From IMG/VR virus record IMGVR_UViG_3300027894_000003, positions 1 to 23,966 of that record: a stretch of 23,966 nucleotides of DNA. The stretch is one strand, 5' to 3'. This DNA comes from a virus. This document shows, piece by piece, positions 4,494 through 23,765 of the stretch; position 1 is the first letter of the stretch; every line of letters starts with the position of its first letter. The translations under genes and the position numbers were made by a program. The notes under the pieces were generated by a model. It was not told the DNA's origin. It saw nothing but the letters and a program-made list of their open reading frames with translations, and made no database searches.

Positions 4494-4523
4494 GTTGACA
4501 GTACACTAATACATCACTATAGT
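4494..4523 (+). promoter_or_regulatory. strong promoter with GTTGAC-type operator, plus strand
   Basis: TTGACA (4495-4500), a 17-bp spacer and TATAGT (4518-4523) form a near-consensus sigma70 promoter. The -35 box lies inside GTTGACAGTACAC (4494-4506), the same partial dyad found at the minus-strand promoters further right. A second TTGACA follows at 4523-4528. The leader ends in AACGAGAAAGGAACAC, a relative of the shared minus-strand leaders. Confidence 0.8.
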
Positions 4524-4557
4524 TGACATTAGTTAAAAACGAGAAAGGAACACGGAC

Positions 4558-4749
4558 ATGAAACTCTTTATTCAACTTTGCGTCGTCGGACTTATCGGCT
4601 TCATTCTGTTCGACACACAATCCGCTATTGGATTGCAAATCACCTATCTAGTCGGATGGTTGATTGCGTGCATTCCTCGCAAAATATGGTTTGAATTACT
4701 CAATACTGTCCCATCATTCCTTTTTTGGACTCTGATGTTGAACGACTAA
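4558..4749 (+). CDS. small membrane protein, first gene of plus-strand cassette
   Basis: A 63-aa hydrophobic protein of unknown function. Two or three membrane segments are visible: residues 3-18 (LFIQLCVVGLIGFILF), about 24-40 (IGLQITYLVGWLIACIP) and possibly 44-60. The start is well supported by AAAGGA 8 nt upstream and by the strong promoter at 4494-4523. It is transcribed against all neighbouring phage genes, with one other membrane protein. A role in lysis (holin-like) or superinfection exclusion would fit such a protein, but no motif proves either. Confidence 0.75.
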   Translation: MKLFIQLCVVGLIGFILFDTQSAIGLQITYLVGWLIACIPRKIWFELLNTVPSFLFWTLMLND

Positions 4750-4761
4750 AGACGAAACAGC

Positions 4762-4796
4762 GGCCCGGCCGGACGCGGAAACGTCCAAACCGGGCC
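4762..4796. other. two-part stem-loop between the two plus-strand genes
   Basis: GGCCCGG (4762-4768) pairs with CCGGGCC (4790-4796), and inside it GGACG (4771-4775) pairs with CGTCC (4782-4786), with small internal bulges and a six-base loop. There is no following T-run, so it is less likely to be a full terminator. It may be an RNA-stability or processing element, or a weak attenuator between the two membrane-protein genes. Confidence 0.55.
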
Positions 4797-4828
4797 TAAC
4801 CACTACAACGAGGAAAGGACTCGTCATC

Positions 4829-5653
4829 ATGGCTACCGAAAAGCGTACATCAAAAATCCTACTGATCGCAACCGCCGTTGCAATCGCTGCAGTTGCCGCA
4901 ACCTTCTCGCTTCAAGGGCTCGGCAAAATCTTCCCCGGATCCGTAGCCGGTGCCGCGCTGCTAGGTGCAGCCCTGGAAATTGCTAAGCTTGCCACCGCCT
5001 CTTGGATGTGCCGCAACTGGAAAGCCTCTACGCGGACGGCTAAAGTGTTTGCCGGCGCCCTGGTAACCATTGCAATGATCGTCAACGTGTGCGGCGTGTT
5101 CGGATATTTGTCGAGTGCACACATTGTGCACGATACCGACGTTGCCACATTCGGTCGCGATCGGCTCGCGACGCTTGATAGCGAAATCACCGCCACGAAA
5201 TGGTCAATCGAAAACATCGACACACAATTGACGGCCCTCAACACTGCGACAACGGCCGCGGCCACAAAGGGACGTATAAACGCGGTCAAAGATTTTCAAG
5301 CTGGTAGCAAAAAGACACGCATCGAATTGACGGCCCAACGCACAACGGAAGCCGCCAAACTCGCCAAATTGGTTACCACCAAGACGACCGTTGAGAGCAA
5401 ACGCAAGGAAATGGAGGCTGAAACCGGCCCGCTGCAATACCTCGCCAGCCTGTTCGGCACCGACGACATTGCCAAGACGGTGCGGGCATTTACTCTCGTC
5501 CTCGCGCTCTTGCCCGACCTGTTTGCGATCTTCCTGGTGATGGCCGCAGAAGCCGGACAGTCGACACGTAAGACCATCAAGCGCGCTACGAAAGCCAAGA
5601 CCACACCAAAGCGAAAAGCCACGGCAAAAATCGTCAAACTCGCAACGGCTTAA
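4829..5653 (+). CDS. phage membrane protein with central coiled coil and basic tail
   Basis: A 274-aa protein with four likely membrane segments: about residues 9-28, 36-56, 72-96 and 215-238. Between the third and fourth is a long Ala/Thr/Lys-rich, probably coiled-coil stretch (about 108-200). The last 30 residues are strongly basic (repeats of K/T/A with R), as if to sit against nucleic acid or inner-leaflet lipids. The segment ASWMCRNWK followed by CGVFGYLSSAHI recalls a widespread phage membrane-protein family of unknown function that I remember mainly from marine phages; this is memory only. Start: GAGGAAAGGA upstream of the ATG. It forms a cassette with the preceding small membrane gene and ends at a terminator. 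Confidence 0.82.
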   Translation: MATEKRTSKILLIATAVAIAAVAATFSLQGLGKIFPGSVAGAALLGAALEIAKLATASWMCRNWKASTRTAKVFAGALVTIAMIVNVCGVFGYLSSAHIVHDTDVATFGRDRLATLDSEITATKWSIENIDTQLTALNTATTAAATKGRINAVKDFQAGSKKTRIELTAQRTTEAAKLAKLVTTKTTVESKRKEMEAETGPLQYLASLFGTDDIAKTVRAFTLVLALLPDLFAIFLVMAAEAGQSTRKTIKRATKAKTTPKRKATAKIVKLATA

Positions 5654-5668
5654 ATCAAAAACGGAATC

Positions 5669-5684
5669 GGGGGCGAAAGCCCCC
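5669..5684. terminator. GC stem with GAAA tetraloop between convergent genes
   Basis: GGGGGC (5669-5674), loop GAAA, GCCCCC (5679-5684), followed by CTATTT on the plus strand. It lies between the stops of the convergent genes at 5653 and 5685, and the next base belongs to the minus-strand stop codon. The hairpin could stop transcription from both sides; the T-tracts are imperfect (TATTT on plus, a TTTTT run about 13 nt away on minus). Confidence 0.7.
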
Positions 5685-5963
5685 CTATTTCGCAACTATC
5701 GTTTCATCGATGGATTGCACCATCGTCCGGCCTGCCGCCGTCGTTATCGTATTCGTCAATTCATAAGTTTGCCCGATCGTTCCGCCCAAAAGCCAAATAG
5801 TCGTCAACGTGTTCGTAAAAGAAGGCGCGGGCGTGGTCTGCGTAATACCGGTCGGCACAGTCCAATTTGACGTGGCGATAGTATCGCCAGCAAGCCGAGT
5901 CGTCCAATCCACAGCATAATCAAGCTTTTCGCCCGGATCCTTATTCGGCCAAGTAAGCGCCAT
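5685..5963 (-). CDS. small phage structural protein, possible fibre-tail adaptor
   Basis: A 92-aa protein starting MALTWPNKDPGEKLDYAVDW. The pattern W-P-x-K-D-P-x-E-x-LDY-x-x-DW followed by RLAGDTI and S-x-W is one I remember from small phage virion proteins near tail-fibre genes, sometimes labelled fibre-tail adaptor; the exact family was not checked. The rest is Thr-rich and probably beta-stranded, like an Ig-like fold. Start: GAGGT about 8 nt before the ATG. It is the last gene of the leftward tail module and is followed by the bidirectional terminator. Confidence 0.75.
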   Translation of the reverse strand: MALTWPNKDPGEKLDYAVDWTTRLAGDTIATSNWTVPTGITQTTPAPSFTNTLTTIWLLGGTIGQTYELTNTITTAAGRTMVQSIDETIVAK

Positions 5964-5972
5964 TTGTCTACC

Positions 5973-7934
5973 TCATGTTATGAAAACAATACGAGCTTGA
6001 GCCGGAACTATCACAATCCGCGATTCACCTGCGACAATTGCGACCCGCGATTCAGCGGCAACGTGTGTAATCCTGTCAGGAGGTGGCGGCAATCCACCTG
6101 TGATCGTGATTTGCCATAGGCCGGCGCTCGCCACTGCACCCGCGCCCGTAAATTGAAAGATTTTCGGTGTGAAACTACCTGCGTTCGCGCTCGCTGGCAC
6201 CGTAGCAAGCGGCACCGCTATTGCGCTAAGAAATGTCCCCGCGCTCGCGCTCGCGGCGGCACTGGCAAGCGATTTAATCGCCCCTGCCCCAATGCTCCCA
6301 GCCGCAGCAATCGCACCCGCGCCCGCAAGTGGTGATGTAATCGCGTTCGCAAACGTGCCCACGCCCGAACCCGCCGCAGCACCAGTTAAATTAACATTGG
6401 TGTTGCCGCCTACCGATACCGCGAAATTCCCGGCCGCAGCGGTCGCGCTCGCGCCCGTAAGCGGTTCTGTAATCGCCTTCGCAAAGCTTCCCGCGCTCGC
6501 AACTGCCGCCGCACCCGTAAGTGATTCTGTAATCGCATTGGCAAAGCTACCAGCATTCGCCACGGTGCCCGCACCAGCAAGAGGCACTGATATTGCATTT
6601 AGGAATGTCCCCGCGCTCGCGCTCGCGGCGGCACCGGCAAGTGGTGAAGTAATCGCGTTTGCAAACGTGCCCACACCCGAGCCCGCCGCAGCACCAGTAA
6701 GATTTACGACAAGCCCAGCCGTAACTACGAAATTGCCGGCACTTGCCGTCGCGGCCGCACCCGTAAGCGGCTCTATGATCGCGTTTGCAAACGTACCCGC
6801 ACCCGAGGTCGCCGCGGCACCGGCAAGCGGTGAGGTAACCGCGTCGGCAAACGTGCCCGCCCCCGAACCTGCGCCTACTCCAAGCAACGAAACACCAGCA
6901 ACCGGTGTAAACGTGCCCGCTCCCGAACTTGCGGCCGCACCCGTAAGCGGTTCTATAATCGCCTTCGCAAACGTACCCGCACCCGAGGTCGCCGCGGCAC
7001 CGGCAAGCGGTGAGGTAACCGCGTCGGCAAACGTGCCCGCCCCCGAACTTGCGGCCGCACCCGTAAGAGGCACTATCGTAGTATTGGATATGCCTACTTT
7101 GTTCAAAAGTAACAATCCGAGGCGCGGTGCTTTACGACGGAGGTTTAATCCACCGCGCATAAATAGCGGCTGCATCAAAGGCGCGAAATTAATCGCACTT
7201 TGAATCAGTGGCCTAGCAACAAAATCAGCCGGAATCAGAAAACAATAAGGATCTAAATGCAATTGCAGCATTTCCGCTGCACTTAACGCACGCAACCAAT
7301 TATAAACTAAAATATATTGATTATTTGAATTCTGCCCCGCCTTACGACCAATTGTCAGGTTTGCAGTAGCATCGGCAGTCGTACCGCCCATCGTGGCACT
7401 ACTGCCGATGGACTTCCCATTAGCGTAATATGTTGCCGTTGTGCCGGTTAAAGCCCGTGTAAAACCATGATTAGCAATTTTGCCTACAGCAAATCCAGTC
7501 GTATATGTAGCAAGATCACTGACATTGCCGACAAACACACCGTTCTGATTTCCGGTGTTATCGAGCCACATACCGACTTCGGTACCGGCTCCTTTGACCA
7601 CAACGTTATTGAAACCATTTGCTAAAAAAGTTATCGGAACAAAACGTGTGAATAATGTAAAATCACCGGCCGAATAATTAATATAATTCGGCACGTTCCA
7701 AAATTGAATACCGGTAGAATCATCGCCTATATGCAGACCAGATTCCGGCGCTCCCGCCCAATTGGTCGCAGTGCGACCGGACGCATTGAATGTCGCATGA
7801 CCTTTGACATTACCGAGATTGACGAGACCGTAGTTTCCGGCCGGCCCAAAAATAAAACAATCTTGCAAACCACGCGCGAGCGGATGCGCCCAATTAACCC
7901 GCAATAATTTCGATAATTTCTTGGTCGTGGGCAC
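5973..7934 (-). CDS. LamG-domain tail fibre-like protein with 20-residue Ala/Gly repeats
   Basis: A 653-aa virion-type protein. Residues about 55-230 look like a concanavalin/LamG jelly-roll: FTLFTRF, then EVGMWLDNTGNQNG, then TATYYANGKSIGS, then NLTIGRKAG and LSAAEMLQLHLDPY, a set common in phage fibre and adhesin proteins. A short linker leads into about sixteen imperfect repeats of 20 residues (about 287-605) of the form PLTGAAASSGAGTFADAVTS, then a Pro-rich turn and a beta-like C-terminus with two near-repeats (AAESRVAIV, AGESRIVIV). The start is a GTG. Expected role is host-surface contact, with the repeats as a shaft or spacer. It has unusually biased third positions, which creates a long false frame on the other strand. 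Confidence 0.85.
   Translation of the reverse strand: MPTTKKLSKLLRVNWAHPLARGLQDCFIFGPAGNYGLVNLGNVKGHATFNASGRTATNWAGAPESGLHIGDDSTGIQFWNVPNYINYSAGDFTLFTRFVPITFLANGFNNVVVKGAGTEVGMWLDNTGNQNGVFVGNVSDLATYTTGFAVGKIANHGFTRALTGTTATYYANGKSIGSSATMGGTTADATANLTIGRKAGQNSNNQYILVYNWLRALSAAEMLQLHLDPYCFLIPADFVARPLIQSAINFAPLMQPLFMRGGLNLRRKAPRLGLLLLNKVGISNTTIVPLTGAAASSGAGTFADAVTSPLAGAAATSGAGTFAKAIIEPLTGAAASSGAGTFTPVAGVSLLGVGAGSGAGTFADAVTSPLAGAAATSGAGTFANAIIEPLTGAAATASAGNFVVTAGLVVNLTGAAAGSGVGTFANAITSPLAGAAASASAGTFLNAISVPLAGAGTVANAGSFANAITESLTGAAAVASAGSFAKAITEPLTGASATAAAGNFAVSVGGNTNVNLTGAAAGSGVGTFANAITSPLAGAGAIAAAGSIGAGAIKSLASAAASASAGTFLSAIAVPLATVPASANAGSFTPKIFQFTGAGAVASAGLWQITITGGLPPPPDRITHVAAESRVAIVAGESRIVIVPAQARIVFIT
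6125..7075 (-). repeat. about sixteen 60-bp coding repeats in the fibre gene
   Basis: The DNA repeats with a 60-bp period, encoding units that start near P-L-(T/A)-G-A and contain (A/S)-G-(T/S)-F-(A)-(N/K/D)-A-I. Two units are longer (about 22-24 residues, near VVTAGLVV and SVGGNTNV). The units alternate, so similar ones recur every two or three units, which points to growth by block duplication. Confidence 0.85.
6787..7048 (-). repeat. 82-bp perfect duplication inside the fibre repeats
   Basis: Bases 6787-6868 are identical to 6967-7048. The offset is 180 bp, exactly three 60-bp units. Neighbouring units have diverged, so this block looks recently copied or homogenised by recombination. Confidence 0.85.
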
Positions 7935-7937
7935 GAC

Positions 7938-9285: not shown

Positions 9286-9294
9286 AATATACCC

Positions 9295-9579: not shown

Positions 9580-9582
9580 GAC

Positions 9583-10287: not shown

Positions 10288-10296
10288 GATGCCCCC

Positions 10297-10824: not shown

Positions 10825-10833
10825 TGTATTCCC

Positions 10834-11529
10834 CTACAACATGCGACCAATCCCGACGCGATCGAATTCCGCCGTGACACTTTCGAGCCAATGACGCACG
10901 TATCCACGCAACATGCGCGAATGCCCGTTATCGTCCCGAATGAATTCCGTGAAAGTGATAGCGTGTTGCTGTAACCGCTCGCATGCCAATTCGGTTAGTT
11001 TCGGCACATCGATCGTTACAGGTGCCAGCGCTCGCAACGAATCAGCGTATCGCGGATCCTTTGCGAGATCGTATTCAGTGTCGTTGACGTGATTCTGTAC
11101 GATACGGTGACTTGCTCCACCGCCCAGCAATCGCGTTGCGTCCACCACTTCATTGAGACTGGATATCGACGGCCCAAGCACATGCAACACACATAGAACC
11201 ACTTGACCCGACTTCACGTCGTCCAAGAAATGCGAATCACCCAAGGTTTTCAAAATCGGGGACAGAACACCGGCCCGAATGTCGACAACCGTTGGAAAGC
11301 TTGGCGATATTTCATCGAATACGCGCATTTGACCGCGCACCGATTGAAAATCAATAACCTCCGCATTAGGATAGAATTCCTTAAGATCACCTTTGGGGAA
11401 TTCAGTATCGAAAATGCGCGCCTGTGCACCGCGAACCGTCAAGTAGTCGATAAGTGCCCGACAGACCGTCGTTTTCCCAACGCCGCCCTTGTCCGCCCCT
11501 ACCAAAAATATCACAGGTTTCTCGGCCAT
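10834..11529 (-). CDS. ParA/MinD-type P-loop ATPase
   Basis: A 231-aa protein of the deviant-Walker ATPase group. KGGVGKTT, with its first lysine, lies at residues 14-21; FDTEFPKGD follows as a Walker A' neighbour and TVVDIRAG as the Walker B strand. Such ATPases partition plasmids or phage-plasmids or position cell components. No ParB-like partner or centromere-like array is visible nearby, and the gene sits at the head of the tail module, which is unusual. The longer frame would need a GTG at 11538 that overlaps the -10 box, so I chose the ATG at 11529. The predicted transcription start falls at that ATG. No ribosome binding site is visible. Confidence 0.88.
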   Translation of the reverse strand: MAEKPVIFLVGADKGGVGKTTVCRALIDYLTVRGAQARIFDTEFPKGDLKEFYPNAEVIDFQSVRGQMRVFDEISPSFPTVVDIRAGVLSPILKTLGDSHFLDDVKSGQVVLCVLHVLGPSISSLNEVVDATRLLGGGASHRIVQNHVNDTEYDLAKDPRYADSLRALAPVTIDVPKLTELACERLQQHAITFTEFIRDDNGHSRMLRGYVRHWLESVTAEFDRVGIGRML

Positions 11530-11536
11530 GCCGTGC

Positions 11537-11565
11537 ACAGTACAGGTTATTCGCGTACTGTCAAC
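11537..11565 (-). promoter_or_regulatory. operator-type promoter of the ParA-like gene (leaderless)
   Basis: On the minus strand GTTGACAGTACGC (11553-11565) contains the -35 TTGACA (11559-11564). A 16-bp spacer leads to TACTGT (11537-11542). The ATG at 11529 lies 7 nt beyond the -10 box, where transcription should begin. Confidence 0.75.
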
Positions 11566-11607
11566 AGGTCGTCAAAGCACATCCGATCCTGCGTACCACT
11601 CGGTCAA

Positions 11608-11851: not shown

Positions 11852-11880
11852 ACCATATACATTATTTGTAGACAGTCAAC
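11852..11880 (-). promoter_or_regulatory. operator-type promoter with conserved leader
   Basis: GTTGACTGTCTAC (11868-11880, minus strand) holds -35 TTGACT; after 16 bp comes TATGGT (11852-11857). The leader GTGTATATCGAAACGAAGGG then leads to the ATG at 11823. Nearly the same promoter and leader precede the genes at 15828 and 23696. Confidence 0.82.
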
Positions 11881-11906
11881 AATTATTTTCACTGTCTACA
11901 AATAAT
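11861..11906. repeat. 16-bp perfect inverted repeat around the promoter -35 region
   Basis: ATTATTTGTAGACAGT (11861-11876) is the exact reverse complement of 11891-11906, with a 14-nt centre. The right arm ends just before the stop codon of the upstream gene. The arms each contain a GTAGACAGT half-site, so this is better read as two operators than as a terminator. Confidence 0.85.
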
Positions 11907-12053
11907 TTATTTCAAAAATAAAGCCCCTGCGATCATCCAAAACGCAGCCATGCTCATGACTTGCGTATATTTTTCACCTTTCACGTAAATAATAGCCACG
12001 GAAAAATTAAAAACTGCCCACAGGATACAAGACCAACCTATAACACTAAACAT
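11907..12053 (-). CDS. 48-aa membrane protein, intact copy of a tandem pair
   Basis: An intact 48-codon gene. The protein has two membrane segments: residues 4-23 (VIGWSCILWAVFNFSVAIIY) and about 33-47 (MSMAAFWMIAGALFL), joined by a short charged loop (VKGEKYTQ). It is a clear paralogue of the interrupted gene next to it: both are 48 aa and share NFS-x-A-x-I near residue 16 and AFW-x-IAGAL-x-LK at the C-terminus. A perfect GGAGGT lies 8 nt before the ATG. An operator-type promoter sits immediately upstream. Function unknown; a small membrane protein of this shape could be holin-like or act on the host envelope. Confidence 0.85.
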   Translation of the reverse strand: MFSVIGWSCILWAVFNFSVAIIYVKGEKYTQVMSMAAFWMIAGALFLK

Positions 12054-12064
12054 TTTTACATACC

Positions 12065-12099
12065 TCCATACATATTATTCGTAGACTGTCTACGAATAA
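12065..12099 (-). promoter_or_regulatory. 25-bp palindromic operator with promoter-like spacing
   Basis: Bases 12075-12099 form a perfect 12+1+12 palindrome centred on T12087, with core GTAGACTGTCTAC at 12081-12093. On the minus strand TAGACA (12087-12092), 16 bp and TATGGA (12065-12070) repeat the spacing of the other operator-promoters, although TAGACA is a poorer -35 box. This is the most symmetric copy of the operator in the window. Confidence 0.72.
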
Positions 12100-12166
12100 C
12101 TATTTCAACAATAAAGCCCCTGCAATTGCCCAAAAAGCGCTTATACTCATAAGTTGCCTATATATT

Positions 12167-12174
12167 TCATCATC
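12167..12174. repeat. left copy of the 8-bp target site duplication
   Basis: TCATCATC directly precedes the left inverted repeat and is repeated at 14052-14059 directly after the right one. Eight base pairs is the size known for the IS1595 family. Confidence 0.9.
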
Positions 12175-12197
12175 GGCGATTATCCGGCACTTGACTT
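12175..12197 (+). repeat. left terminal inverted repeat
   Basis: Twenty-three bases matching the reverse complement of 14029-14051 without mismatch. TTGACT at 12191-12196, in the inner part of the repeat, can serve as the -35 box of the transposase promoter. Confidence 0.92.
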
Positions 12198-12219
12198 TAT
12201 AATTGGTCACTGGCAATAT
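12191..12219 (+). promoter_or_regulatory. putative transposase promoter
   Basis: TTGACT (12191-12196), 17-bp spacer, CAATAT (12214-12219), then AAGGGAG about 6 nt before the ATG at 12243. The -35 box is part of the terminal repeat, a common arrangement that lets transposase binding repress its own gene. Confidence 0.5.
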
Positions 12220-12242
12220 CCTTCTGCGCAAGGGAGATTGCC

Positions 12243-13163
12243 ATGGCTAAGCGACCGAAAGCCGTCCACCAACTCACCATCCCCCAATTCGAAGCCATGT
12301 TCCCGGATGAAGAAGCTTGTTGCGCCTATTTGGTTGCCCGTCGATGGCCGGACGGTGTCCGTTGCCCGCGTTGCGGCGCGGAGAACCCCCACAAGTTGCC
12401 CAATCGCCCGTGGTCGTGGCAATGCTACCAGTGCGCTCCAGAAACCAGCTACCGATTTTCCCATATTGCCGGGACTATTTTTGAGAACACAAATAAAGAC
12501 TTGCGGGAGTGGTTCCGCGTCGTCCACATGATGCTGACCAGCAAGAAAGGCATTTCCGCTCTCCAGGTAAAGCGCGTCATGGGCTTCGGTTCCTACGAAA
12601 CCGCATGGTCCATGTGTCACAAAATCCGCACTGCTTTGATTGAGGACTTGGATAAGCTCGGCGGCATTGTCGAGGTCGATGAAACCTACGTCGGCGGTAA
12701 GGACAAGAACCGTCATTGGGATAAGAAAAACCACGCCAGCGGACGCGGTGCCGCAAAGGACAAAACGCCCGTCGTCGGTGCGGTGAAGCGCAAGGGCAAC
12801 GTCATCGCCCGCGTTGTCGATGGTGTGAGCCGAGCCGTTCTGGAGCAGTTCGTTAATGAGGCTGTATCCACTAAAGTCAGCCTGCTTTGCACCGACGATT
12901 TCAGAGGCTATAACCGACTGCGCTACCGCTTCCCGCACGCCTCCATCAATCACAGCGAAGGCAAGCACGTCATGCAGGGCGTTGTCGGTGCAATCCATAC
13001 CCAAACGATTGAGGGCTTTTGGTCCCTCATTAAGCGCGGTTGCGTCGGAACTTTCCACAAGGTCAGCAAAAAGTATTTGCCGCTCTATGTCGCGGAATTT
13101 CAGTTCCGCTACAACAATCGCATGAATTATGACATTTTTGGAACGGCGATTGAGGGATGTTAA
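12243..13163 (+). CDS. IS1595-family (ISXO2-like) DDE transposase
   Basis: A 306-aa transposase that catalyses movement of the element. The N-terminal zinc ribbon has C41, C44, C61 and C64 (CPRC and CYQC). The catalytic core shows D146 in VEVDETYVGGK, D218 in LLCTDDFRGY and E257 in IHTQTIEGFWSLIKRG, followed by the family-typical HKVSKKYL and EFQFRYNNR. Length (about 300 aa) is normal and no frameshift is seen, so it is probably active. The stop overlaps the passenger start by 7 nt (ATGTTAA). Codon use is more GC-rich than in the surrounding phage genes. Confidence 0.96.
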   Translation: MAKRPKAVHQLTIPQFEAMFPDEEACCAYLVARRWPDGVRCPRCGAENPHKLPNRPWSWQCYQCAPETSYRFSHIAGTIFENTNKDLREWFRVVHMMLTSKKGISALQVKRVMGFGSYETAWSMCHKIRTALIEDLDKLGGIVEVDETYVGGKDKNRHWDKKNHASGRGAAKDKTPVVGAVKRKGNVIARVVDGVSRAVLEQFVNEAVSTKVSLLCTDDFRGYNRLRYRFPHASINHSEGKHVMQGVVGAIHTQTIEGFWSLIKRGCVGTFHKVSKKYLPLYVAEFQFRYNNRMNYDIFGTAIEGC

Positions 13164-13981
13164 ACAAATTTCGGGTTCCTGAAATAGTTCTTGGTATGCT
13201 ATTCGCATCTGGATTTTGGGCTGGAATTCTTGGCTGGCAAGCATCAGACGCGCCTACCGAGCGACAAAAACAAGAATGTTACGACGCCGCCAAGAAAAGC
13301 GCCACCAAGGCAGAAGAGTGCAAAACCTTTTGGGAGAAAACGACGAGTGACCCCGTTTCTCTCTTCACCTTTATTCTCGCCTTGACTACGGGTGGCTTGT
13401 GGATTGCCACCATTGGACTGTATCTCGCGGGCGAAAAACAAATTGCTGTCGCAAATAAAACCGCCGATGCAGCCAAAGAGGCTGCTGTCGCCGCTGAAAA
13501 ATCCGCCAACGCTCTGCCAATAATCGAAGGTGCCTACTTGTTTCCTGATATAATTATCGACCATGTCGCGGATAGCTTGTCCGCTTTTGAACAATCTCAG
13601 GTTAAAACCAATCGACTGATTATCGAATTTCAAGTTAAGAACTTCGGTCGAACTCCGGCACTCATTCAATCCGTCCATGCAAATTTGATCCATCCAGATT
13701 CTATAAATGGTAGAGCTTTTGATAACGATCATAGGAAAACGGTCAGAAAGACAATCCTCGGCAGTGGCGAACCAACAGAAAGACTGCAAACCGAGATAGC
13801 AGACTTTAGCCGAGAGGAAGCCGCTCACATTAAAAGCGGACAAAGCCAACTCTATTTCACAGGAAAGATATTTTATTTCGACATATGGGGACAGAGGTGG
13901 GCGCTTTTCTTCGATTGGGAGTTCAGCCCTAGCCAAGGCAAATTTATCCCCAATCATCGACCACGCGATAAGGCAGATTAG
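13157..13981 (+). CDS. IS passenger: membrane-anchored coiled-coil protein of unknown function
   Basis: A 274-aa protein translated by overlap with the transposase stop. A hydrophobic segment at about residues 7-28 (VPEIVLGMLFASGFWAGILG), a second at about 68-92 (SLFTFILALTTGGLWIATIGLYLA) and a heptad-like Ala-rich coiled coil at about 93-118 (KTADAAKEAAVAAEKSANAL) are visible. The rest is a soluble beta-rich domain beginning LPIIEGAYLF. I remember this architecture as common among chromosomal proteins of unknown function in Bradyrhizobium-like bacteria; this was not checked. It lacks nuclease or resistance motifs. It may be cargo acquired by the element or a membrane partner of transposition. 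Confidence 0.82.
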   Translation: MLNKFRVPEIVLGMLFASGFWAGILGWQASDAPTERQKQECYDAAKKSATKAEECKTFWEKTTSDPVSLFTFILALTTGGLWIATIGLYLAGEKQIAVANKTADAAKEAAVAAEKSANALPIIEGAYLFPDIIIDHVADSLSAFEQSQVKTNRLIIEFQVKNFGRTPALIQSVHANLIHPDSINGRAFDNDHRKTVRKTILGSGEPTERLQTEIADFSREEAAHIKSGQSQLYFTGKIFYFDIWGQRWALFFDWEFSPSQGKFIPNHRPRDKAD

Positions 13982-14028
13982 GAGAGCGCCACCCTGTCGG
14001 ACGCGACCGTAGACGGTACGTCCTACAT

Positions 14029-14051
14029 AAGTCAAGTGCCGGATAATCGCC
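14029..14051 (-). repeat. right terminal inverted repeat
   Basis: Exact reverse complement of 12175-12197. The 8-bp target duplication TCATCATC follows at 14052-14059. Confidence 0.92.
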
Positions 14052-14123
14052 TCATCATCCCCATGAATAAGAGCCGTGGAAAAATTAAAAAATGCCCACG
14101 CAATACAAAAATAACCTATGACC

Positions 14124-14630
14124 TTAAGCATTTTTTGCATACCTCCATTTTACACCGCGAGGCGTATTGCCACGGATCGCGGCAAAATGTCGCAATCCTG
14201 TCAACAAATAACCTGTAGCGCTTCCGTTGCGCCAACCCTCCGCACGTTCGGTCGCACGGATCCCTTGTTCGTTGAGCAATATTGCCGTAACGGCCGCGAG
14301 CGCTTCCGTACCGCGAAGGTCGGCATACCATTCCCGATACTTTGCCACTGCGTCGAGGCGCCCCACTGCGGCTCGCTCGGCACCATCGGGACATGGACAT
14401 GCCGACGCAATACCCAAGGCCGGATCATGCGCCATACGCTGTCCCGCAATGGCATGGTAGCCCGCAGTAATATCATCGGCTGCGGTCTGTTCCCACACAT
14501 TGAGCACGCCACGACGTTTCAACCGCGTTAACGGCGCCTCGGTCATTCGCGCCAGCATGCCCGCGCTCGGTGCCATGCGTGAACTCTCAACGACCTGCAG
14601 TTTTTTTCGAAACTTTTCTTTTTTGGTCAC
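14124..14630 (-). CDS. hypothetical phage protein, possible regulator
   Basis: A 168-aa protein if started at the GTG at 14630, whose GTGA overlaps the stop of the upstream gene; a start at 14708 is open but would overlap that gene by 80 nt. The N-terminus is basic (VTKKEKFRKKLQVVE), followed by a helical middle (MLARMTEAPLTRLKRRGVLN). The C-terminal part (AVTAILLNEQGIRATERAEG, then NGSATGYLLTGLRHFAAIRG) recalls the helix-turn-helix end of DUF6456-like alphaproteobacterial and phage regulators, a weak similarity. It overlaps the interrupted small membrane gene by 8 nt, so that gene was probably translated from the same mRNA. Confidence 0.72.
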   Translation of the reverse strand: MTKKEKFRKKLQVVESSRMAPSAGMLARMTEAPLTRLKRRGVLNVWEQTAADDITAGYHAIAGQRMAHDPALGIASACPCPDGAERAAVGRLDAVAKYREWYADLRGTEALAAVTAILLNEQGIRATERAEGWRNGSATGYLLTGLRHFAAIRGNTPRGVKWRYAKNA

Positions 14631-15129: not shown

Positions 15130-15327
15130 TCACACCTTTACTTTTGGCGGCCATCCGAGCGGACCAATGTTTGATTTCACACCAAAGGCCGCTTCCACGC
15201 GTTCGATCGAAAACGTTTCAACCTTGATACCCATGTAACCGCGCCCGCGCCAATAATCCGCAATTTGAGCGGCCAGCACGCGCGCACCACGGCTTGTCAT
15301 ATAATCGTTTTGCTTGACCGGTGGCAT
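15130..15327 (-). CDS. small hypothetical protein
   Basis: A 65-aa basic protein, MPPVKQNDYMTSRGARVLAA, then YWRGRGYMGIKVETFSIERV and a Gly/Pro/Lys-rich end. GCGGAG precedes the ATG at 15327 by 7 nt; the longer open frame has no support. It could bind nucleic acid given its charge, but no motif is recognised. It is the first gene downstream of the operator-promoter at 15353-15381. Confidence 0.75.
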   Translation of the reverse strand: MPPVKQNDYMTSRGARVLAAQIADYWRGRGYMGIKVETFSIERVEAAFGVKSNIGPLGWPPKVKV

Positions 15328-15352
15328 TCTGGCTCCGCTTGTTTCAATGATT

Positions 15353-15381
15353 ATTGTGCATGATGCGAATATACTGTCAAC
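15353..15381 (-). promoter_or_regulatory. operator-type promoter, weak -10
   Basis: GTTGACAGTATAT (15369-15381, minus strand) gives -35 TTGACA (15375-15380); the best -10 candidate at 16 bp is CACAAT (15353-15358). The -35 box overlaps the stop codon of the HTH gene. The leader to the ATG at 15327 is about 20 nt and has a ribosome site. Confidence 0.6.
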
Positions 15382-15652
15382 TGGATTCCACCTCACCCAA
15401 TACCCGATATATATAAGCCCGCGTCACACCAAGCAAAAACGCAATGCGCCGCGGTTTAATTCCAGTTGAATGCAGAATAAGCACTTGTCGCGGAATATCA
15501 CTTGTGCGACGTCGCTTGCGGCGCCGTTCAGGTCGGTGCTCGCGCAATAACATATATACGCGACCGGGCTTCAAGCCAACAGCCGTCGCAATTATGTCCA
15601 CAGATTCCCCAGCGTCCGCCATACGCAAGATTGTTTCAAGTACGGTTGTCAT
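15377..15652 (-). CDS. double helix-turn-helix DNA-binding protein
   Basis: A 91-aa basic protein with two helix-turn-helix-like segments: residues about 14-38 (GESVDIIATAVGLKPGRVYM) and about 64-87 (GIKPRRIAFLLGVTRAYIYR), joined by an Arg/Lys-rich linker (RPERRRKRRRTSD). It resembles homeodomain-like or transposase-type HTH domains. A protein with two tandem HTH units is a candidate reader of the dyad operators in this window, and its own 3' end carries one such operator. This link is inference. It overlaps the upstream gene by 4 nt (ATGA). Confidence 0.8.
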   Translation of the reverse strand: MTTVLETILRMADAGESVDIIATAVGLKPGRVYMLLREHRPERRRKRRRTSDIPRQVLILHSTGIKPRRIAFLLGVTRAYIYRVLGEVESS

Positions 15653-15858: not shown

Positions 15859-15887
15859 ACCATACGCGCTATCTGTAGACAGTCAAC
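15859..15887 (-). promoter_or_regulatory. operator-type promoter with conserved leader
   Basis: GTTGACTGTCTAC (15875-15887) holds -35 TTGACT; 16 bp later is TATGGT (15859-15864), then the leader GTGCATATCGAAACGAAGGA. A 13-bp inverted repeat pairs 15871-15883 with 15898-15910, adding a second half-site upstream. The layout copies that at 11852-11906. Confidence 0.84.
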
Positions 15888-16103: not shown

Positions 16104-16104
16104 G

Positions 16105-17718
16105 CTAAAAAGCCTCAGCAATCTCTTTCACCGGCGGCAACGGCACAACGATTGGACGCCCGTCCGACGTCACCTGAAGCGCTGATGATCGCGATGCACC
16201 ATTTGGAACCATGAATGCCAACACCTCACCAATCTCCCCCGGTCGCATCCACCGTGCCTTTTCCGCAAACGATATCAATAGAGGCGGCACACTCTGCACA
16301 TACAACGGCCCGTTACCCATAGCCTTAACCTGTGTAATCCCGTCAACCGTCCATACCTTGCTTATCGGCAACCATCCGCCCTCACGCTCGACACCAGTCT
16401 TATGCGAGGATAGCAGCGCGGCACCGCTCGGCATGTCCGAAAGCTTCGCGTCCGTCACCTCCCGCGGCCCGGATCGCATATCGTAATTACAATGCGGACA
16501 TTCAACAATTATTTTGCGCACGGGTTCAAGACAAGCCGGGCAAAGCTTCGTCATAGGCGCATCGCATGCCCAGCACTTTACTGCCGCTGCAGCGTTCCGC
16601 TTACCACATTCATCACAAGCCGCGAGTCGCGCCTTACTTTCCATCGGGCGAATAAAATCAAGCGGCCCATGTTGGTCAATATTGCCGGCGAAATCGAGTA
16701 CGGCACAATCTTCCTTGCCCGCCGCTGTACGCAATGCCCGGCCACAAATTTGAATATAAAGTCCCAAGGATTTAGTGCGGCGACGCATCACTAGAAGATC
16801 GACGGCGGGCACATTGAATCCGGTCGTAAGCGCAGCCAAGTTTACTAAGGCACGTAACCTCCCGGCCCGATATGCATCGATCGTAGCGGCGCGCTCGCGG
16901 GCCGGTGTGTCACCAAGCACAAGTCCGGTAGGGATGCGCCATTCATTCATACGTGAATACATCGCGCGGGCGGCTTTCGTTGATGCTTCGAATATCAACC
17001 ATGCACGCCGATCCACTCCGTGATGGACCATTTGCGCAATATGATTGTCCATCAATTCAATCATTTGTGCGTCTTGCGATTCTCCGGTAAATTCCCCCTG
17101 CCGAGAGCGCAGTTTTGCTGGATCAATCTTGTCGTCGGCACCAATCGAAAAGGCTGGACACAAATAACCGTCACGGATCCCGTCAAGAATTCCATACCGA
17201 TATACGACACGCTCGAATGGTGCGCCATCGCCCTCGATTAGACTACCACCTTGCAATCGGAACACAGTTCCCGAACCGCCTGGCATGCGAGGCGAACCCA
17301 GCGCACGATGCAAATCGCGATACATCCCATTTTCGTGATGACCAATCAAATGCGCTTCGTCGACGCACAGCATCGAAATCGGCCCAAAATTATGCGCGTA
17401 TTTGTAGATCGATTGCACCGCCGCACTGATGATCGGTGCGCGCCACGTTCTTTCCGATAATGCCGCAGCGTTTACGCCGATGTGCATGCCCAGTATAAGA
17501 TCGCGGCATGCTTTTGCGTTTTGTTCCACTAGCTCGCGAGTATGTGCGCCAATGATAACACGTCCACCACGCTCCACCTCACGCCGCGCCAATTCCGCGA
17601 ACATGAGCGATTTACCGGAACCGACACACGCATCAACAAGCGGACGCATAACGCCTTGCCGAAACGCGGATTCTATCGCGTCCACAGCATCAATTTGATG
17701 GGGACGCAGAGTAATCAT
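16105..17718 (-). CDS. SF2 DEAH-type helicase with C-terminal zinc ribbons
   Basis: A 537-aa helicase that should use ATP to unwind or translocate along DNA in phage replication or recombination. Motif I is ACVGSGKS (about residues 30-37), motif II is CVDEAH in the stretch around residue 120, and the C-terminal RecA fold ends with ICGRALRTAAGKEDCAVLDF (motif VI region). Two Cys-rich ribbons follow: CDECGKRN...CWACDAPM and CPACLEPV...CPHCNYDM, probably for DNA contact. It resembles the phage and restriction-type DEAD/DEAH helicases. Its ATG overlaps the upstream gene's stop by 4 nt. Confidence 0.93.
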   Translation of the reverse strand: MITLRPHQIDAVDAIESAFRQGVMRPLVDACVGSGKSLMFAELARREVERGGRVIIGAHTRELVEQNAKACRDLILGMHIGVNAAALSERTWRAPIISAAVQSIYKYAHNFGPISMLCVDEAHLIGHHENGMYRDLHRALGSPRMPGGSGTVFRLQGGSLIEGDGAPFERVVYRYGILDGIRDGYLCPAFSIGADDKIDPAKLRSRQGEFTGESQDAQMIELMDNHIAQMVHHGVDRRAWLIFEASTKAARAMYSRMNEWRIPTGLVLGDTPARERAATIDAYRAGRLRALVNLAALTTGFNVPAVDLLVMRRRTKSLGLYIQICGRALRTAAGKEDCAVLDFAGNIDQHGPLDFIRPMESKARLAACDECGKRNAAAAVKCWACDAPMTKLCPACLEPVRKIIVECPHCNYDMRSGPREVTDAKLSDMPSGAALLSSHKTGVEREGGWLPISKVWTVDGITQVKAMGNGPLYVQSVPPLLISFAEKARWMRPGEIGEVLAFMVPNGASRSSALQVTSDGRPIVVPLPPVKEIAEAF

Positions 17719-19022: not shown

Positions 19023-19114
19023 GGTCGCCGCCCTCCACGCCACCGATAGCCTGCCCATACAACAAGGACACTAAACGCGACCACAATCGTTAATCCGATG
19101 TAGATTACTGTCAT
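19019..19114 (-). CDS. 31-aa single-pass membrane protein
   Basis: A very short gene between two ATGA/GTGA overlaps: its ATG overlaps the coiled-coil gene's stop and its TGA overlaps the exonuclease GTG. The protein is MTVIYIGLTIVVAFSVLVVW plus an 11-residue basic tail rich in Arg and Gly. One membrane helix (about residues 3-21) with positive residues on the inner side is typical of small phage membrane peptides. Exact coupling on both sides makes it likely to be real. Confidence 0.72.
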   Translation of the reverse strand: MTVIYIGLTIVVAFSVLVVWAGYRWRGGRRP

Positions 19115-19374
19115 AACCCCAAAGTCCTTTCCACCTCACGTAAGATTAATCGCGGGTCACGCATCGGTTCTTTCAAAAGCAATACCGTGTCAAACCAATC
19201 ACGAACTAAACGCAGAGTTTCGAAAGCCTCATTTTCCGCGTTTGCTAACGCGTTTTCCGCTTCGTCTCGTTGTTCGCGCGCTTCGTCGATATCACCTTGC
19301 CATTCTTCCCGGTCGCGCCGCTCACGGTCCAATTTACGTAAGAGTTCCCGCCGTCGCTCTTCACGTATCGTCAT
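19111..19374 (-). CDS. charged coiled-coil protein
   Basis: An 87-aa highly charged protein, nearly all helix: EERRRELLRKLDRERRDREE, then acidic EAREQRDEAENALANAENEA, and a C-terminal hydrophobic part (LVRDWFDTVLLLKEP). Probably a coiled-coil dimer. The ATG at 19374 has only a weak ribosome site. A short leaderless frame precedes and overlaps it (see the promoter at 19406). Function unknown. Confidence 0.77.
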   Translation of the reverse strand: MTIREERRRELLRKLDRERRDREEWQGDIDEAREQRDEAENALANAENEAFETLRLVRDWFDTVLLLKEPMRDPRLILREVERTLGL

Positions 19375-19405
19375 TTATTTTCGCCCATGCTTGAGTCATA
19401 CGCAT

Positions 19406-19434
19406 ACTGTAGCGCGGCGATGTAGACTGTCAAC
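19406..19434 (-). promoter_or_regulatory. operator-type promoter with overlapping leaderless mini-frame
   Basis: GTTGACAGTCTAC (19422-19434) gives -35 TTGACA (19428-19433), then 16 bp and TACAGT (19406-19411). The expected start point coincides with an ATG at 19399. This opens a 12-codon frame (MTQAWAKINDDT) that overlaps the start of the coiled-coil gene out of frame. Confidence 0.75.
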
Positions 19435-19445
19435 GGCTATTTATT

Positions 19446-21272: not shown

Positions 21273-21682
21273 GTTGCTGTCACCGTTTTTATCAACTGTT
21301 TAGCCCGCACTTTGCTCACATTCAGCCCGTAAAGTGGCGAAGCAAGCCGTGCTGCGATCATATCGAGCGCGACGCGCCGGCCGTGACGATTTTGCTTGGC
21401 ACAATACGCACCATATTCGACCTGATGCGCAAGCAATTCCTCTACACCACGAAATTCAACATCCGAGCAATAGTTACGCCACCAATTAAAAGGGGTGTCG
21501 GCTTGGCGCGTACAATGAACGTTTTCATGCGCAAGCAGTTCGTCACCGATCGCAATTGATTTTGGATTATAGATGACGTCGCCGAATGCGTAAATCACCG
21601 GCTTGTTGTAGACATTAAAAGTTGCATCGATAAGCCCGAAATTTGGCGGGTAATCAAATATTATTTGCCGTTTCACTTTCAT
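21269..21682 (-). CDS. HExxH metallopeptidase-like phage protein
   Basis: A 137-aa protein with LLAHENVHCTRQ near residue 50: the H-E-x-x-H zinc-binding helix of metallopeptidases. A downstream helix, VEELLAHQVEYGAY, could supply the third ligand (H or E). The conserved feel of this gene suggests a small phage metalloprotein, perhaps a protease acting on host targets; activity is inferred. Upstream GGAG is only 2 nt from the ATG at 21682 but 8 nt from a GTG at 21676, so the true start may be the GTG (MKRQIIFDYPP). An 18-bp inverted repeat lies just before it. Confidence 0.75.
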   Translation of the reverse strand: MKVKRQIIFDYPPNFGLIDATFNVYNKPVIYAFGDVIYNPKSIAIGDELLAHENVHCTRQADTPFNWWRNYCSDVEFRGVEELLAHQVEYGAYCAKQNRHGRRVALDMIAARLASPLYGLNVSKVRAKQLIKTVTAT

Positions 21683-21689
21683 AACTCCG

Positions 21690-21779
21690 ATTTTAGCGAT
21701 GATGTGGAATGCGGAACAGATGACCAAAACCGCTTTCGCTACCCGGACAAGAGGGCTTGCGCCACATCATCGCTAAAAT
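21690..21779 (-). repeat. 18-bp perfect inverted repeat with a 54-nt loop
   Basis: Bases 21690-21707 are the exact reverse complement of 21762-21779. In the minus-strand mRNA the 3' arm ends 1-2 nt before the GGAG of the metallopeptidase gene, while the 5' arm contains the stop of the small membrane gene. The loop holds a 25-codon frame from an ATG at 21770 to a TAA at 21693. Possible roles: translational control, transcript stability or a protein-binding site. Confidence 0.8.
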
Positions 21780-21880
21780 AGTTGCTGCAACACCAAGTTT
21801 CCCAACCCAAACCCGAGAGACACGACTCCTATTGCAGCAAGCACAAGCAAGAGTCGCAGTTCGTCCGTATCAAGCCACAC
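21773..21880 (-). CDS. 35-aa hydrophobic membrane peptide (putative)
   Basis: A GTG-started frame of 35 codons, 7 nt after the stop of the HD-hydrolase gene. The protein begins MWLDTDELRLLLVLAAIGVV and ends in VLQQLF: one membrane helix with Leu/Val/Gly bias. No clear ribosome site is seen, and its TAG lies inside the inverted repeat. A weak promoter-like TTGACA/TACGGA pair overlaps it. Its length, hydrophobic pattern and place resemble the 31-aa peptide at 19019. Confidence 0.55.
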   Translation of the reverse strand: MWLDTDELRLLLVLAAIGVVSLGFGLGNLVLQQLF

Positions 21881-21892
21881 AGTATTGTCAAC
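21864..21892 (-). promoter_or_regulatory. weak operator-promoter variant
   Basis: GTTGACAATACTG (21880-21892) gives -35 TTGACA (21886-21891); TACGGA (21864-21869) is 16 bp downstream. The operator part departs from the dyad at several positions. The HD-hydrolase stop codon (21888-21890) lies in the -35 box. Confidence 0.4.
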
Positions 21893-22490
21893 GCTTTTCA
21901 AACACAGGCAACAAATCTTTGCACGCGTCCATGTACCACCATACCGCAGACTCCGTGTTGTAGACGGTGAAATGATTTATCACCACCGGTCGCGCATTTT
22001 CCACGGCGTCCGCCCATGGTTTTAGTATTGGCTTCATGAAAATGTCGCGCTCGGTGCGCAACATCCGAATATCGTACTCTTTCACAATCGACCAAACGCT
22101 ATCGGGTAAGGTCGCAGGCAAACCGGCCGCGATAAATATCGCACTGTCAATACGTCGCTGCAAATTGCGGTAAGCTTGTCGCAAATCGTTTCCAAAAGGT
22201 CGCGCAAATTCCATCAACGCTTCGATTTTCGGCGTCACATCGTCACCAATATATGCCTCATGTGCGTCATGAAGTAAGAAAACAGCCGCGGTGAGCCGAT
22301 TGTTAGTGTTGTGCAATATCGCACGAGCACCCTCAACACAGTGTTGAGCAACGCTATATGGTTCGGCCGTGTGGCCGCCAAACCGGAGAATTCTCCCGAG
22401 CACTGTACTGATGATAGAAAAATCAACATCCTCCGCGCGAGGATTCAAAAGATCGAACGCATTTCCGTTGATTGTTTGAATCCAAGTCAT
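21888..22490 (-). CDS. HD-domain phosphohydrolase (YfbR-like)
   Basis: A 200-aa HD-superfamily metal hydrolase. Visible ligands are H50 (YSVAQHC), the H74-D75 pair followed by H77-E78 (LLHDAHEAY) and a later Asp near residue 154 (KEYDIRML). The layout matches YfbR-type 5'-deoxynucleotidases, and phages carry such enzymes to shape nucleotide pools; no activity test is possible here. The ATG at 22490 overlaps the upstream gene's stop (ATGA), which decides the start. Length is near normal for this group. Confidence 0.9.
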   Translation of the reverse strand: MTWIQTINGNAFDLLNPRAEDVDFSIISTVLGRILRFGGHTAEPYSVAQHCVEGARAILHNTNNRLTAAVFLLHDAHEAYIGDDVTPKIEALMEFARPFGNDLRQAYRNLQRRIDSAIFIAAGLPATLPDSVWSIVKEYDIRMLRTERDIFMKPILKPWADAVENARPVVINHFTVYNTESAVWWYMDACKDLLPVFEKR

Positions 22491-22783
22491 GTCACTTTTT
22501 CCCAATCAAAAAACGTCGTGATCCGCTTTGATACAGTGCCGTCCTGCTTGAACAAATATACAAAAAGGTTTGGTCTGGCATTACGGTATGCATTGGGAAA
22601 AATGCTCTCAACAATACCGACACGGGTACCGTTTTTCACCTTGTCACCGATCTTGATACCGTATTTCTCGGTGCTGCGTTCAATGTAGAGTGCGTCACGA
22701 TCACGCTCGGCTTGCGCCAGTTCAGCGCGCAAACGCGTAACAGTTGCTTCCGCCTCGTTGATGTCTCGCTCAATAGCATCCAT
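22487..22783 (-). CDS. coiled-coil plus KOW-like small protein
   Basis: A 98-aa protein. Residues 1-42 form a coiled coil (MDAIERDINEAEATVTRLRA, then LAQAERDRDALYIERS); residues about 48-98 look like a small beta-barrel (YGIKIGDKVKNGTRVGIVES, then NLFVYLFKQDGTVSKRITTF), perhaps KOW- or SH3-like. The ATG at 22783 lies 7 nt beyond the -10 box of the promoter at 22791, giving a possible leaderless mRNA; AAAGGA 11 nt upstream could instead serve as a ribosome site on a longer mRNA. Confidence 0.8.
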   Translation of the reverse strand: MDAIERDINEAEATVTRLRAELAQAERDRDALYIERSTEKYGIKIGDKVKNGTRVGIVESIFPNAYRNARPNLFVYLFKQDGTVSKRITTFFDWEKVT

Positions 22784-22790
22784 GATGTAG

Positions 22791-22819
22791 ACTATCCTTT
22801 CGTTTCGCGTACTGTCAAC
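22791..22819 (-). promoter_or_regulatory. operator-type promoter inside the end of the upstream gene (leaderless)
   Basis: GTTGACAGTACGC (22807-22819) holds -35 TTGACA (22813-22818); 16 bp later is GATAGT (22791-22796), which contains the TAG of the upstream gene. The ATG at 22783 starts 7 nt after it. Confidence 0.7.
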
Positions 22820-23034
22820 GCATTTTCGTAAAGAGGGTTCGTTTTCCACGTCGTGCCAGTAGCCGCGATAATCGCTCGACGGGCGGCCTCCGCAATCCCG
22901 GTCATTTGCGACGCCGCGCACACATCGCACTCTATACGGCCGGCAGCTACCGCCTCAACATAGAGTGCGAACGTCAAGAGAGGATCCACACTTTCCCATT
23001 GCCGAACACGATCGAATCTTGCCAGCACGTTCAT
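22792..23034 (-). CDS. hypothetical protein with operator-encoding C-terminus
   Basis: An 80-aa protein, MNVLARFDRVRQWESVDPLL, then ALYVEAVAAGRIECDVCAAS and a Thr-rich end. The pair C-x2-C in ECDVC could bind metal. Its last eleven codons (ending TVRETKG) double as the promoter-operator of the next gene. The ATG overlaps the upstream stop by 4 nt. Function unknown. Confidence 0.78.
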   Translation of the reverse strand: MNVLARFDRVRQWESVDPLLTFALYVEAVAAGRIECDVCAASQMTGIAEAARRAIIAATGTTWKTNPLYENALTVRETKG

Positions 23035-23201
23035 TGTCCTATTCCCTCTTTTCGCATATCTGCAAGCAAGTCGCGAATTTCGTTTAATTCAGCGCGAGCG
23101 CGAAGGGTTGCATCTGTGTATAATTTCGCCTCGAAAAGTGCTTCTGCACGCTGCAAAATGTAAAAAGATCGCACAAGTAGACCGCGGTGCGTGTCACTCA
23201 T
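23031..23201 (-). CDS. small helical protein
   Basis: A 56-aa protein, MSDTHRGLLVRSFYILQRAE, then ALFEAKLYTDATLRARAELN, almost entirely helical. The ATG at 23201 has GGGA about 5 nt upstream and is preferred over two upstream starts. It overlaps the next gene by 4 nt. Function unknown. Confidence 0.75.
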   Translation of the reverse strand: MSDTHRGLLVRSFYILQRAEALFEAKLYTDATLRARAELNEIRDLLADMRKEGIGQ

Positions 23202-23259
23202 TTCATTCCCAATCATCGAATTTATGTGTTCCCTGTTTGCGTGAGGTGTCCGTCGGGAG

Positions 23260-23367
23260 TCAGGCACCGTGCGTAGCAAACGGGCCAGCAAGTAAGCCGG
23301 TACGTGGTCCGCGACGCACCGACACGTAATAGTCGCGAGGCTCGGCGAACAGGTCGGCGGGGCGCAT
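23260..23367 (-). CDS. 35-aa protein, possible truncated copy of a longer phage family
   Basis: A 35-codon gene, MRPADLFAEPRDYYVSVRRG then PRTGLLAGPFATHGA. I remember longer proteobacterial phage proteins with DLFA-x-P-R-x-Y-VSVR...TGLL-x-GPF-x-TH followed by 25-40 more residues; here a stop follows at once. AAGGGA lies about 9 nt before the ATG at 23367, within a leader related to the conserved one. A 10-bp direct repeat (GTCAGGCACC at 23259-23268 and 23390-23399) flanks the gene. It may be a remnant or a naturally short form. Confidence 0.7.
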   Translation of the reverse strand: MRPADLFAEPRDYYVSVRRGPRTGLLAGPFATHGA

Positions 23368-23414
23368 TAGGGCGATTCCCTTCGTTTCCGTCAGGCACCC
23401 GCTAAAAGTCAAGT

Positions 23415-23696
23415 TCAATTGGCGTATTCCGCTGGATAAAAACGCAGTGCCCAATAACCATCAGGACGTTTTATCCATTTACCAAATTCAATACTACGTC
23501 CTTTATTATTCTCGACTTCGATAAATCGACCGCTTTCTGGTCCGGGACCATCATCGAAAACAATGTCGATATATTTGGGTGTGAAACAGCCTTTACCTTT
23601 GCATTCCTGACATTGACCGATATCAGTTTCAAAATAAGGATCGTCAGTCTGTGGATCGTGACGAATTAAACGGCCGTCTACACAACGAGTAGTCAT
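23415..23696 (-). CDS. small protein with CxxC and CxxxxxC pattern
   Basis: A 93-aa protein, MTTRCVDGRLIRHDPQTDDP, then QCQECKGKGCFTPKYID (C-x2-C-x4-C), then a beta-rich C-terminal half (FGKWIKRPDGYWALRFYP). The CxECxGxGC core recalls a single DnaJ-type zinc-ribbon repeat (CxxCxGxG), so it may bind one zinc or be a small chaperone-like fragment. GAGGA precedes the ATG at 23696 by about 6 nt. It is the first gene after the right-hand promoter. Confidence 0.8.
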   Translation of the reverse strand: MTTRCVDGRLIRHDPQTDDPYFETDIGQCQECKGKGCFTPKYIDIVFDDGPGPESGRFIEVENNKGRSIEFGKWIKRPDGYWALRFYPAEYAN

Positions 23697-23736
23697 ATTC
23701 TGTCCTCTTCTATAAGTCTTTCGTTTCGATATCCAC

Positions 23737-23765
23737 ACCATACGCCCTTTTAATGTACTGTCAAC
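23737..23765 (-). promoter_or_regulatory. operator-type promoter with conserved leader, right end
   Basis: GTTGACAGTACAT (23753-23765) gives -35 TTGACA (23759-23764); 16 bp later is TATGGT (23737-23742), followed by GTGGATATCGAAACGAAAG. A second half-site (GTAGATAGT on the minus strand) lies upstream at 23777-23785. This heads the leftward gene run. Confidence 0.82.

Follow-up and report, generated by a model that had tools for sequence, protein, structure and literature searches.

The stretch of DNA analysed here (the window) comprises 23,966 nucleotides of the virus record IMGVR_UViG_3300027894_000003 and carries, dispersed along its length, nine copies of a 13-bp element, most of which begin with GTTGAC(A/T) and have the appearance of combined promoters and operators (Table 1). 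In reverse complement, the window matches positions 5234-29199 of the 42,398-bp contig IMGVR_UViG_3300006354_000003 at 100% identity. This contig is siphovirus-like, with genes for a terminase, a portal, a major capsid protein, a tape measure and a lambda J-like tip protein, the names being drawn partly from reading of the translations. An earlier note, based on the letters of the window, had listed the nine copies, all of which were recovered at the positions and on the strands given, and had proposed that they belong to a genome-wide family in which a partial dyad doubles as the -35 box. With up to three mismatches allowed, GTTGACNGTCTAC matches the window 32 times, whereas shuffled sequences give 13 matches on average and 23 at most. 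The position-matrix scan that the note had proposed gave 18 matches of at least 11 bits on the 42,398-bp contig (0-3 in shuffles), and at least four further strong sites lie beyond the window, at contig positions 422 (minus strand), 31412, 35086 and 36034 (plus strand). The motif is thus enriched in the remainder of the genome as well, and the relatives described below agree with a genome-wide family. No RNA family was found in an Rfam scan of the window.

Table 1. Putative promoter-operators and genes of interest in the window
Feature	Position	Strand	Predicted -10 box	Remarks
Promoter-operator GTTGACAGTACAC	4494-4506	+	TATAGT 4518-4523	Open reading frame (ORF) for a small membrane protein downstream, 4558-4749
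Promoter-operator GTTGACAGTACGC	11553-11565	-	TACTGT 11537-11542	ATG of ParA-like gene at 11527-11529, 7 nt past the -10 box; predicted leaderless
Promoter-operator GTTGACTGTCTAC	11868-11880	-	TATGGT 11852-11857	Inside a 16-bp perfect inverted repeat, 11861-11876/11891-11906
Inverted half-copy GTAGACAGTGAAA	11887-11899	-		Upstream of the 11868 site, at 19 bp
Perfect 25-bp palindrome TTATTCGTAGAC-W-GTCTACGAATAA	12075-12099			Symmetric 12081 copy; no TTGACA hexamer; weak promoter
Site GTTGACAGTATAT	15369-15381	-	CACAAT (weak), at 16 bp	Upstream of the conserved 88-aa gene
Promoter-operator GTTGACTGTCTAC	15875-15887	-	TATGGT 15859-15864	13-bp perfect inverted repeat, 15871-15883/15898-15910
Promoter-operator GTTGACAGTCTAC	19422-19434	-	TACAGT 19406-19411	ORF 19111-19374 downstream
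Promoter-operator GTTGACAGTACGC	22807-22819	-	TAGTCT 22789-22794	ATG at 22781-22783; predicted leaderless
Promoter-operator GTTGACAGTACAT	23753-23765	-	TATGGT 23737-23742	Half-copy GTAGATAGTGCAA upstream
ParA-like Walker ATPase	10834-11538	-		Start predicted leaderless; 11553 site directly upstream
Conserved 88-aa protein	15130-15396	-		Adjoins the tandem helix-turn-helix (HTH) gene; in 19 of 19 lineages; WGVRSNLVNGLPP-type motif
Tandem-HTH protein, 91 aa	15377-15652	-		Two homeodomain-like HTHs and an Arg/Pro linker; in 19 of 19 lineages
DEAD-box helicase	16105-17718	-		Marker gene for finding relatives

Relatives were located through searches with the terminase and the helicase and one search with the tandem-HTH protein, the helicase alignment being the query for the collection, and contigs identical or nearly identical in the region (e.g., G002, G003 and G009) were merged into one lineage. 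Nineteen related lineages were obtained in this way, and each has its own genome-specific version of GTTGAC-(A/T)-NNNNN(C), typically in 10-21 copies per near-complete genome. The repeated 13-mer opens with GTTGAC(A/T) and in most cases closes with C, while its right half differs from lineage to lineage: GTTGACTTTCCGY in G013, GTTGACTYTCCGY in G014, GTTGACATACAHC in G015, GTTGACARTAAAC in G016, GTTGACARTCAAC and TTTATGTTGACTTTCAACATA-like forms in G017, GTTGACTKTTTGC in both G018 and L169, GTTGACAGTTYRC in G012, GTTGACARTRCRC in G009, GTTGACAGTCGGCTTAT in L176 and GTTGACTCTCAYG in L168. When words were counted de novo, with no motif supplied, words of this site family were among the highest-ranking ones in most near-complete genomes. 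The right half GTCTAC given in the earlier note is therefore correct for the phage of the window and not general, being lineage-specific among the relatives. A private motif, consisting of the exact GTCTAC form together with TATGGT and matching only its own contig, was likewise dropped since the right halves of the relatives vary. The sites are 13 bp long, repeated, lineage-specific and mostly in one orientation relative to transcription. More distant terminase relatives (at most 57% identity) showed no repeated form of the motif, and no cultured phage of the clade was found among 50,697 phage records.

Across the 19 lineages, a TAnnnT box lies 16-18 bp past GTTGAC(A/T) in 176 of 412 cases and past GTTGAC(C/G) in 4 of 473, random positions giving 1.6%, which supports the proposal that the site is built into the -35 region of a promoter. 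Among the 241 sites that fit the code of their own genome, a strict -10 box is present at 161 (about 67%; background 1.7%) and a relaxed one at 216 (90%; background 24%), and 184 of these sites fall between genes, in DNA of which about 86% is coding. With a TTGACA-like -35 box, a 16-18 bp spacer and a TAnnnT -10 box all in excess of background, the GTTGAC(A/T) elements are, by their composition and spacing, promoters of sigma70 type. In the window itself, the expected -10 boxes follow most copies (TATGGT three times, TACAGT and TACTGT), whereas the copies at 15369 and 12081 are weak in this respect, the latter lacking the TTGACA hexamer as already remarked in the earlier note; the spacing departs to 17 bp for TATAGT at the 4494 copy and to 18 bp for TAGTCT at the 22807 copy. 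ATG codons form a narrow peak 6-7 nt beyond the -10 box (36 cases), and a second, wider peak begins at about 22 nt. Since the first peak coincides with the expected transcript start, a large minority of genes should have leaderless messenger RNAs, which should accordingly be widespread among the genes of these phages; in the window, the ParA-like gene and the gene starting at 22783 should be of this kind.

Conservation is not confined to the 13-mer. Within-genome information, on average, stays high between about -5 and +16 and rises once more at the -10 box, so that the operator probably extends more widely than the element described in the earlier note. When columns were compared with their mirror partners, the best axis was position 7.0. 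Because the left half does not vary between genomes, the outer flanks were chosen as the cleanest test of a dyad: positions -7 to -1, set against the complement of positions 14 to 20, scored 0.325 within the same genome and 0.278 with other genomes (z = 4.96; p = 2.5e-4, and 5e-5 when the run was lengthened), and none of 13 other axes gave a signal. Judged by this genome-by-genome mirroring, which bears out the dyad first proposed for the window, the site is a dyad with its axis at position 7. That the two arms change together in each lineage indicates that one protein surface would read both, i.e., that the reader is a dimer. In the window, the symmetry is carried to an extreme at three copies. 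The sites at 11868 and 15875 each have an inverted half-copy at a distance of 19 bp, a feature that had escaped the earlier note, and so lie in perfect inverted repeats (16 bp and 13 bp, respectively) with a 14-nt loop; the 25-bp palindrome of the 12081 copy has no such loop. Beyond the GTAGACAGT core, the arms vary between the 11868, 15875 and 12081 copies yet remain complementary.

Two further observations concern the carriers of the sites. In a 2.8-Mb metagenome-assembled genome labelled Betaproteobacteria, which contains a close relative with the code GTTGACAGTCGGC, all seven copies of this sequence are on a 14-kb phage contig and none is found elsewhere; by this distribution the site is a phage element. 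A tyrosine integrase is encoded in 7 of 11 relatives, and on that genomic evidence the phage family is temperate, while the contig of the window's phage has a ParA-like gene and no integrase. The ParA-like ATPase may belong to a partition system of a plasmid-like prophage.

Taken together, the -35 half of these sigma70-type promoters probably serves as one operator arm for a phage-encoded dimeric repressor, which would control a regulon extending over the whole phage. GTTGAC(A/T), the left half, would be the -35 box, followed by a 16-17 bp spacer, a TAnnnT -10 box and a start that in many cases coincides with the A of the ATG, and the same bases would double as one arm of the dyad, which spans about 21-23 bp. 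Counted from a start near position 36, with the -35 box occupying positions 2-7, the centre of the dyad (position 7) falls roughly at -30. From this geometry and from what is generally known of sigma70, a dimer covering the contact of sigma region 4 should repress, and a phage dimer seated on the dyad would exclude that region and silence most phage promoters together. Strong, consensus-like promoters would also suit repression better than activation. The role of such a protein would be like that of an immunity or lysis-lysogeny repressor, and operator and protein would diverge together, giving each lineage a code of its own in the part of the site beyond the constant -35 half.

Near-consensus -35 and -10 boxes at normal spacing would also be expected if the elements were plain sigma70 promoters, the bases after the -35 box being kept by duplication of promoters within a genome or by their fit to the host polymerase and no phage regulator being involved. 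This explanation is improbable. The 13-mer is missing from the remainder of the phage-bearing metagenome-assembled genome, the right halves differ among phages, and the mirror symmetry is genome-specific with a single axis, a property that sigma70 contacts do not have; furthermore, conservation drops past about position 16 and before -5, the -10 box excepted, and hence is not that of copied DNA. Little probability is likewise given to an activator site, at which a dyad-bound phage protein would recruit the polymerase to phage genes during infection. Such a protein would contact the -35 region, as class II activators do, and the tandem-HTH gene is one of the co-directional genes of a probably lytic operon that starts from such a promoter, the one at 15875. 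However, the dyad centre near -30 lies within the region that the polymerase must cover. Promoters close to the sigma70 consensus need no activator, and those described here would fire unaided. It is very improbable that the sites are parS-like partition or replication sites of a phage-plasmid, as the ParA-like ATPase gene with a site directly upstream might suggest, given that they are dispersed before genes of many kinds and accompanied by -10 boxes and that 7 of the 11 relatives encode an integrase.

If a phage-encoded repressor binds the dyad, two proteins stand out as candidates. Ranked first, at somewhat under an even chance, is a stand-alone Arm-type (P4 integrase-like) domain protein of 130-180 aa (PF13356), present in 12 lineages and encoded at contig positions 459-920 in the window's phage, outside the window. 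In 11 of the 12 genomes, a site pointing in the opposite direction precedes the start of the gene by 25-220 bp; these 11 layouts are not independent, because the gene order is one of shared ancestry. A divergent gene beside the promoter that it controls is the usual layout of a repressor gene. No other conserved family showed this arrangement, save the antisense shadow of the Arm gene itself. The tandem-HTH protein, singled out for footprinting in the earlier note, is a more tentative candidate. It is a core gene of all 19 lineages, a presence biased by the fact that most relatives were found via the adjacent helicase. Its AlphaFold2 model has six helices forming two HTHs (pLDDT, the predicted local distance difference test score, 92), with weak fold matches to a CRISPR-repeat-binding protein, Tn3 resolvase and Pax and Tc3 domains. 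Arg78, in its second recognition helix, is paired with a purine at site position 8 in 11 of 12 Arg lineages, and Pro or Ala with a pyrimidine in 5 of 5 (Fisher p = 0.0017), L169 (contig G023) versus G018 being an exception; no column of the protein, Arg78 included, passes family-wise correction. Simple coevolution of this protein with the site was rejected, overall divergence being uncorrelated, so that its standing as a core gene is not matched by covariation of its whole sequence with the site. The position of the Arm protein is suggestive of a better-placed regulator than the tandem-HTH protein, and some other protein is about as plausible a regulator as the latter. The conserved 88-aa protein next to the tandem-HTH gene had no match in Pfam or PHROG.

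Genes for CtrA-like phage response regulators (L154:11601-12443, with homologues in G016, G017, G019, G022 and G023 and truncated forms in G012, G014 and G018) are often found behind a promoter-operator, and their presence suggests that some members of the clade infect Alphaproteobacteria. As binders of the site, CtrA-like and XRE-like regulators were set aside, neither being universal across lineages.

Several results weigh against repression by a phage-encoded protein of a temperate family, or against the proteins proposed for it. Covariation of the Arm protein with the site, at p = 0.004 over 12 lineages, rises to p = 0.076 over 11 once a near-duplicate is removed, and PrimPol, a neighbour of the Arm gene, covaries with the site alike. 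In a Mantel test on whole proteins, divergence of the site was uncorrelated with that of the HTH protein, the Arm protein or the helicase. No classical repressor common to all lineages was found, and among 84,980 bacterial and archaeal genomes there is one close relative only, a low number for integrating phages. The most specific version of the proposal, in which a stand-alone integrase-type arm-binding domain would act as the genome-wide repressor of an uncultured temperate clade, with operators built into the -35 boxes of mostly leaderless promoters, and with site and protein co-diverging into lineage immunity codes, is doubtful as a whole.

The closest parallels are found in two well-studied systems. 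Cluster A mycobacteriophages such as L5, Bxb1 and TipsytheTRex have 20-36 13-bp stoperators per genome, oriented with transcription and carrying lineage codes (PMC3029335; PMC6550527). The L5 stoperator is GGTGGMTGTCAAG (complement CTTGACAKCCACC) and that of Bxb1 is GTTACGWDTCAAG, positions 1 and 9-13 being invariant (PMC3029335). The constant TCAAG of these sites (complement CTTGA) holds -35-like bases, and on the other strand they start with CTTGA and end with a fixed C, as in the phage sites described here; in their arrangement, constant -35-like bases joined to a variable remainder, the two groups are strikingly similar. The resemblance to stoperators noted earlier holds for dispersed 13-bp sites with lineage codes and fails for the promoter-linked dyads. 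Most cluster A stoperators are not promoters (PMC6550527), whereas a strict -10 box accompanies 161 and a relaxed one 216 of the 241 code-matching sites here, and the cluster A repressor is a two-domain monomer on an asymmetric site (PMC9283540), in contrast to the dyad centred on position 7. No homologue of the cluster A repressor was recognized for the candidates in Pfam, PHROGs or a fold search of the PDB, the L5 and Bxb1 proteins not having been compared directly. In P1, one repressor acting at 22 dispersed C1 operators shuts down lytic genes (PMC8546580), but the 17-bp consensus, ATTGCTCTAATAAATTT, is asymmetric and the repressor a different one, while here the dyad is fused with TTGAC(A/T). 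The system works like cluster A stoperators and P1 C1 operators and fits neither definition. As to the candidate proteins, the Arm protein matches the Arm domain of P4-like integrases by profile and by fold (PDB 3ju0, 3jtz and 3rmp), but stands alone without a recombinase domain, is divergent from a promoter-operator and does not adjoin an integrase in the genomes checked. The tandem-HTH protein shares two homeodomain-like HTHs and a basic linker with bipartite HTH proteins (the DNA-binding domain of Tc3 transposase, the Pax paired domain, 2lvs and the HTH of Tn3 resolvase) through weak fold and profile matches, but has no transposase, resolvase or other catalytic domain; it had no match in the 50,697 phage records.

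The window contains other features. An insertion of the IS1595 family at 12167-14059, with identical 23-bp terminal repeats (12175-12197 and 14029-14051) and an 8-bp target duplication, TCATCATC, carries a transposase gene (12243-13163) and a passenger ORF (13157-13981) and splits a gene for a small membrane protein that starts near 14140 and ends near 12100. The split gene (12100-12166 and 14060-14140) and that at 11900-12065 are tandem paralogues for a small membrane protein, probably one with two transmembrane segments, and palindromic copies of the site lie between them. A long array of imperfect repeats occupies the region 6169-7203 within a tail-fibre-like ORF (5973-7934).

These phages would represent a second large and sequence-diverse case, beside the cluster A mycobacteriophages, in which a whole phage gene set is placed under one repeated operator. 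Since nearly every site is tied to a -35 box, the other half alone would be free to drift, and the clade may thus offer a natural experiment on how immunity specificity evolves under a fixed constraint, for which nineteen operator codes and the candidate proteins that go with them are available. The many genes predicted to be leaderless are of interest by themselves. In these uncultured bacterial viruses, many genes start from near-identical switches, and the spot that the polymerase grips is likely also the site of a control protein.

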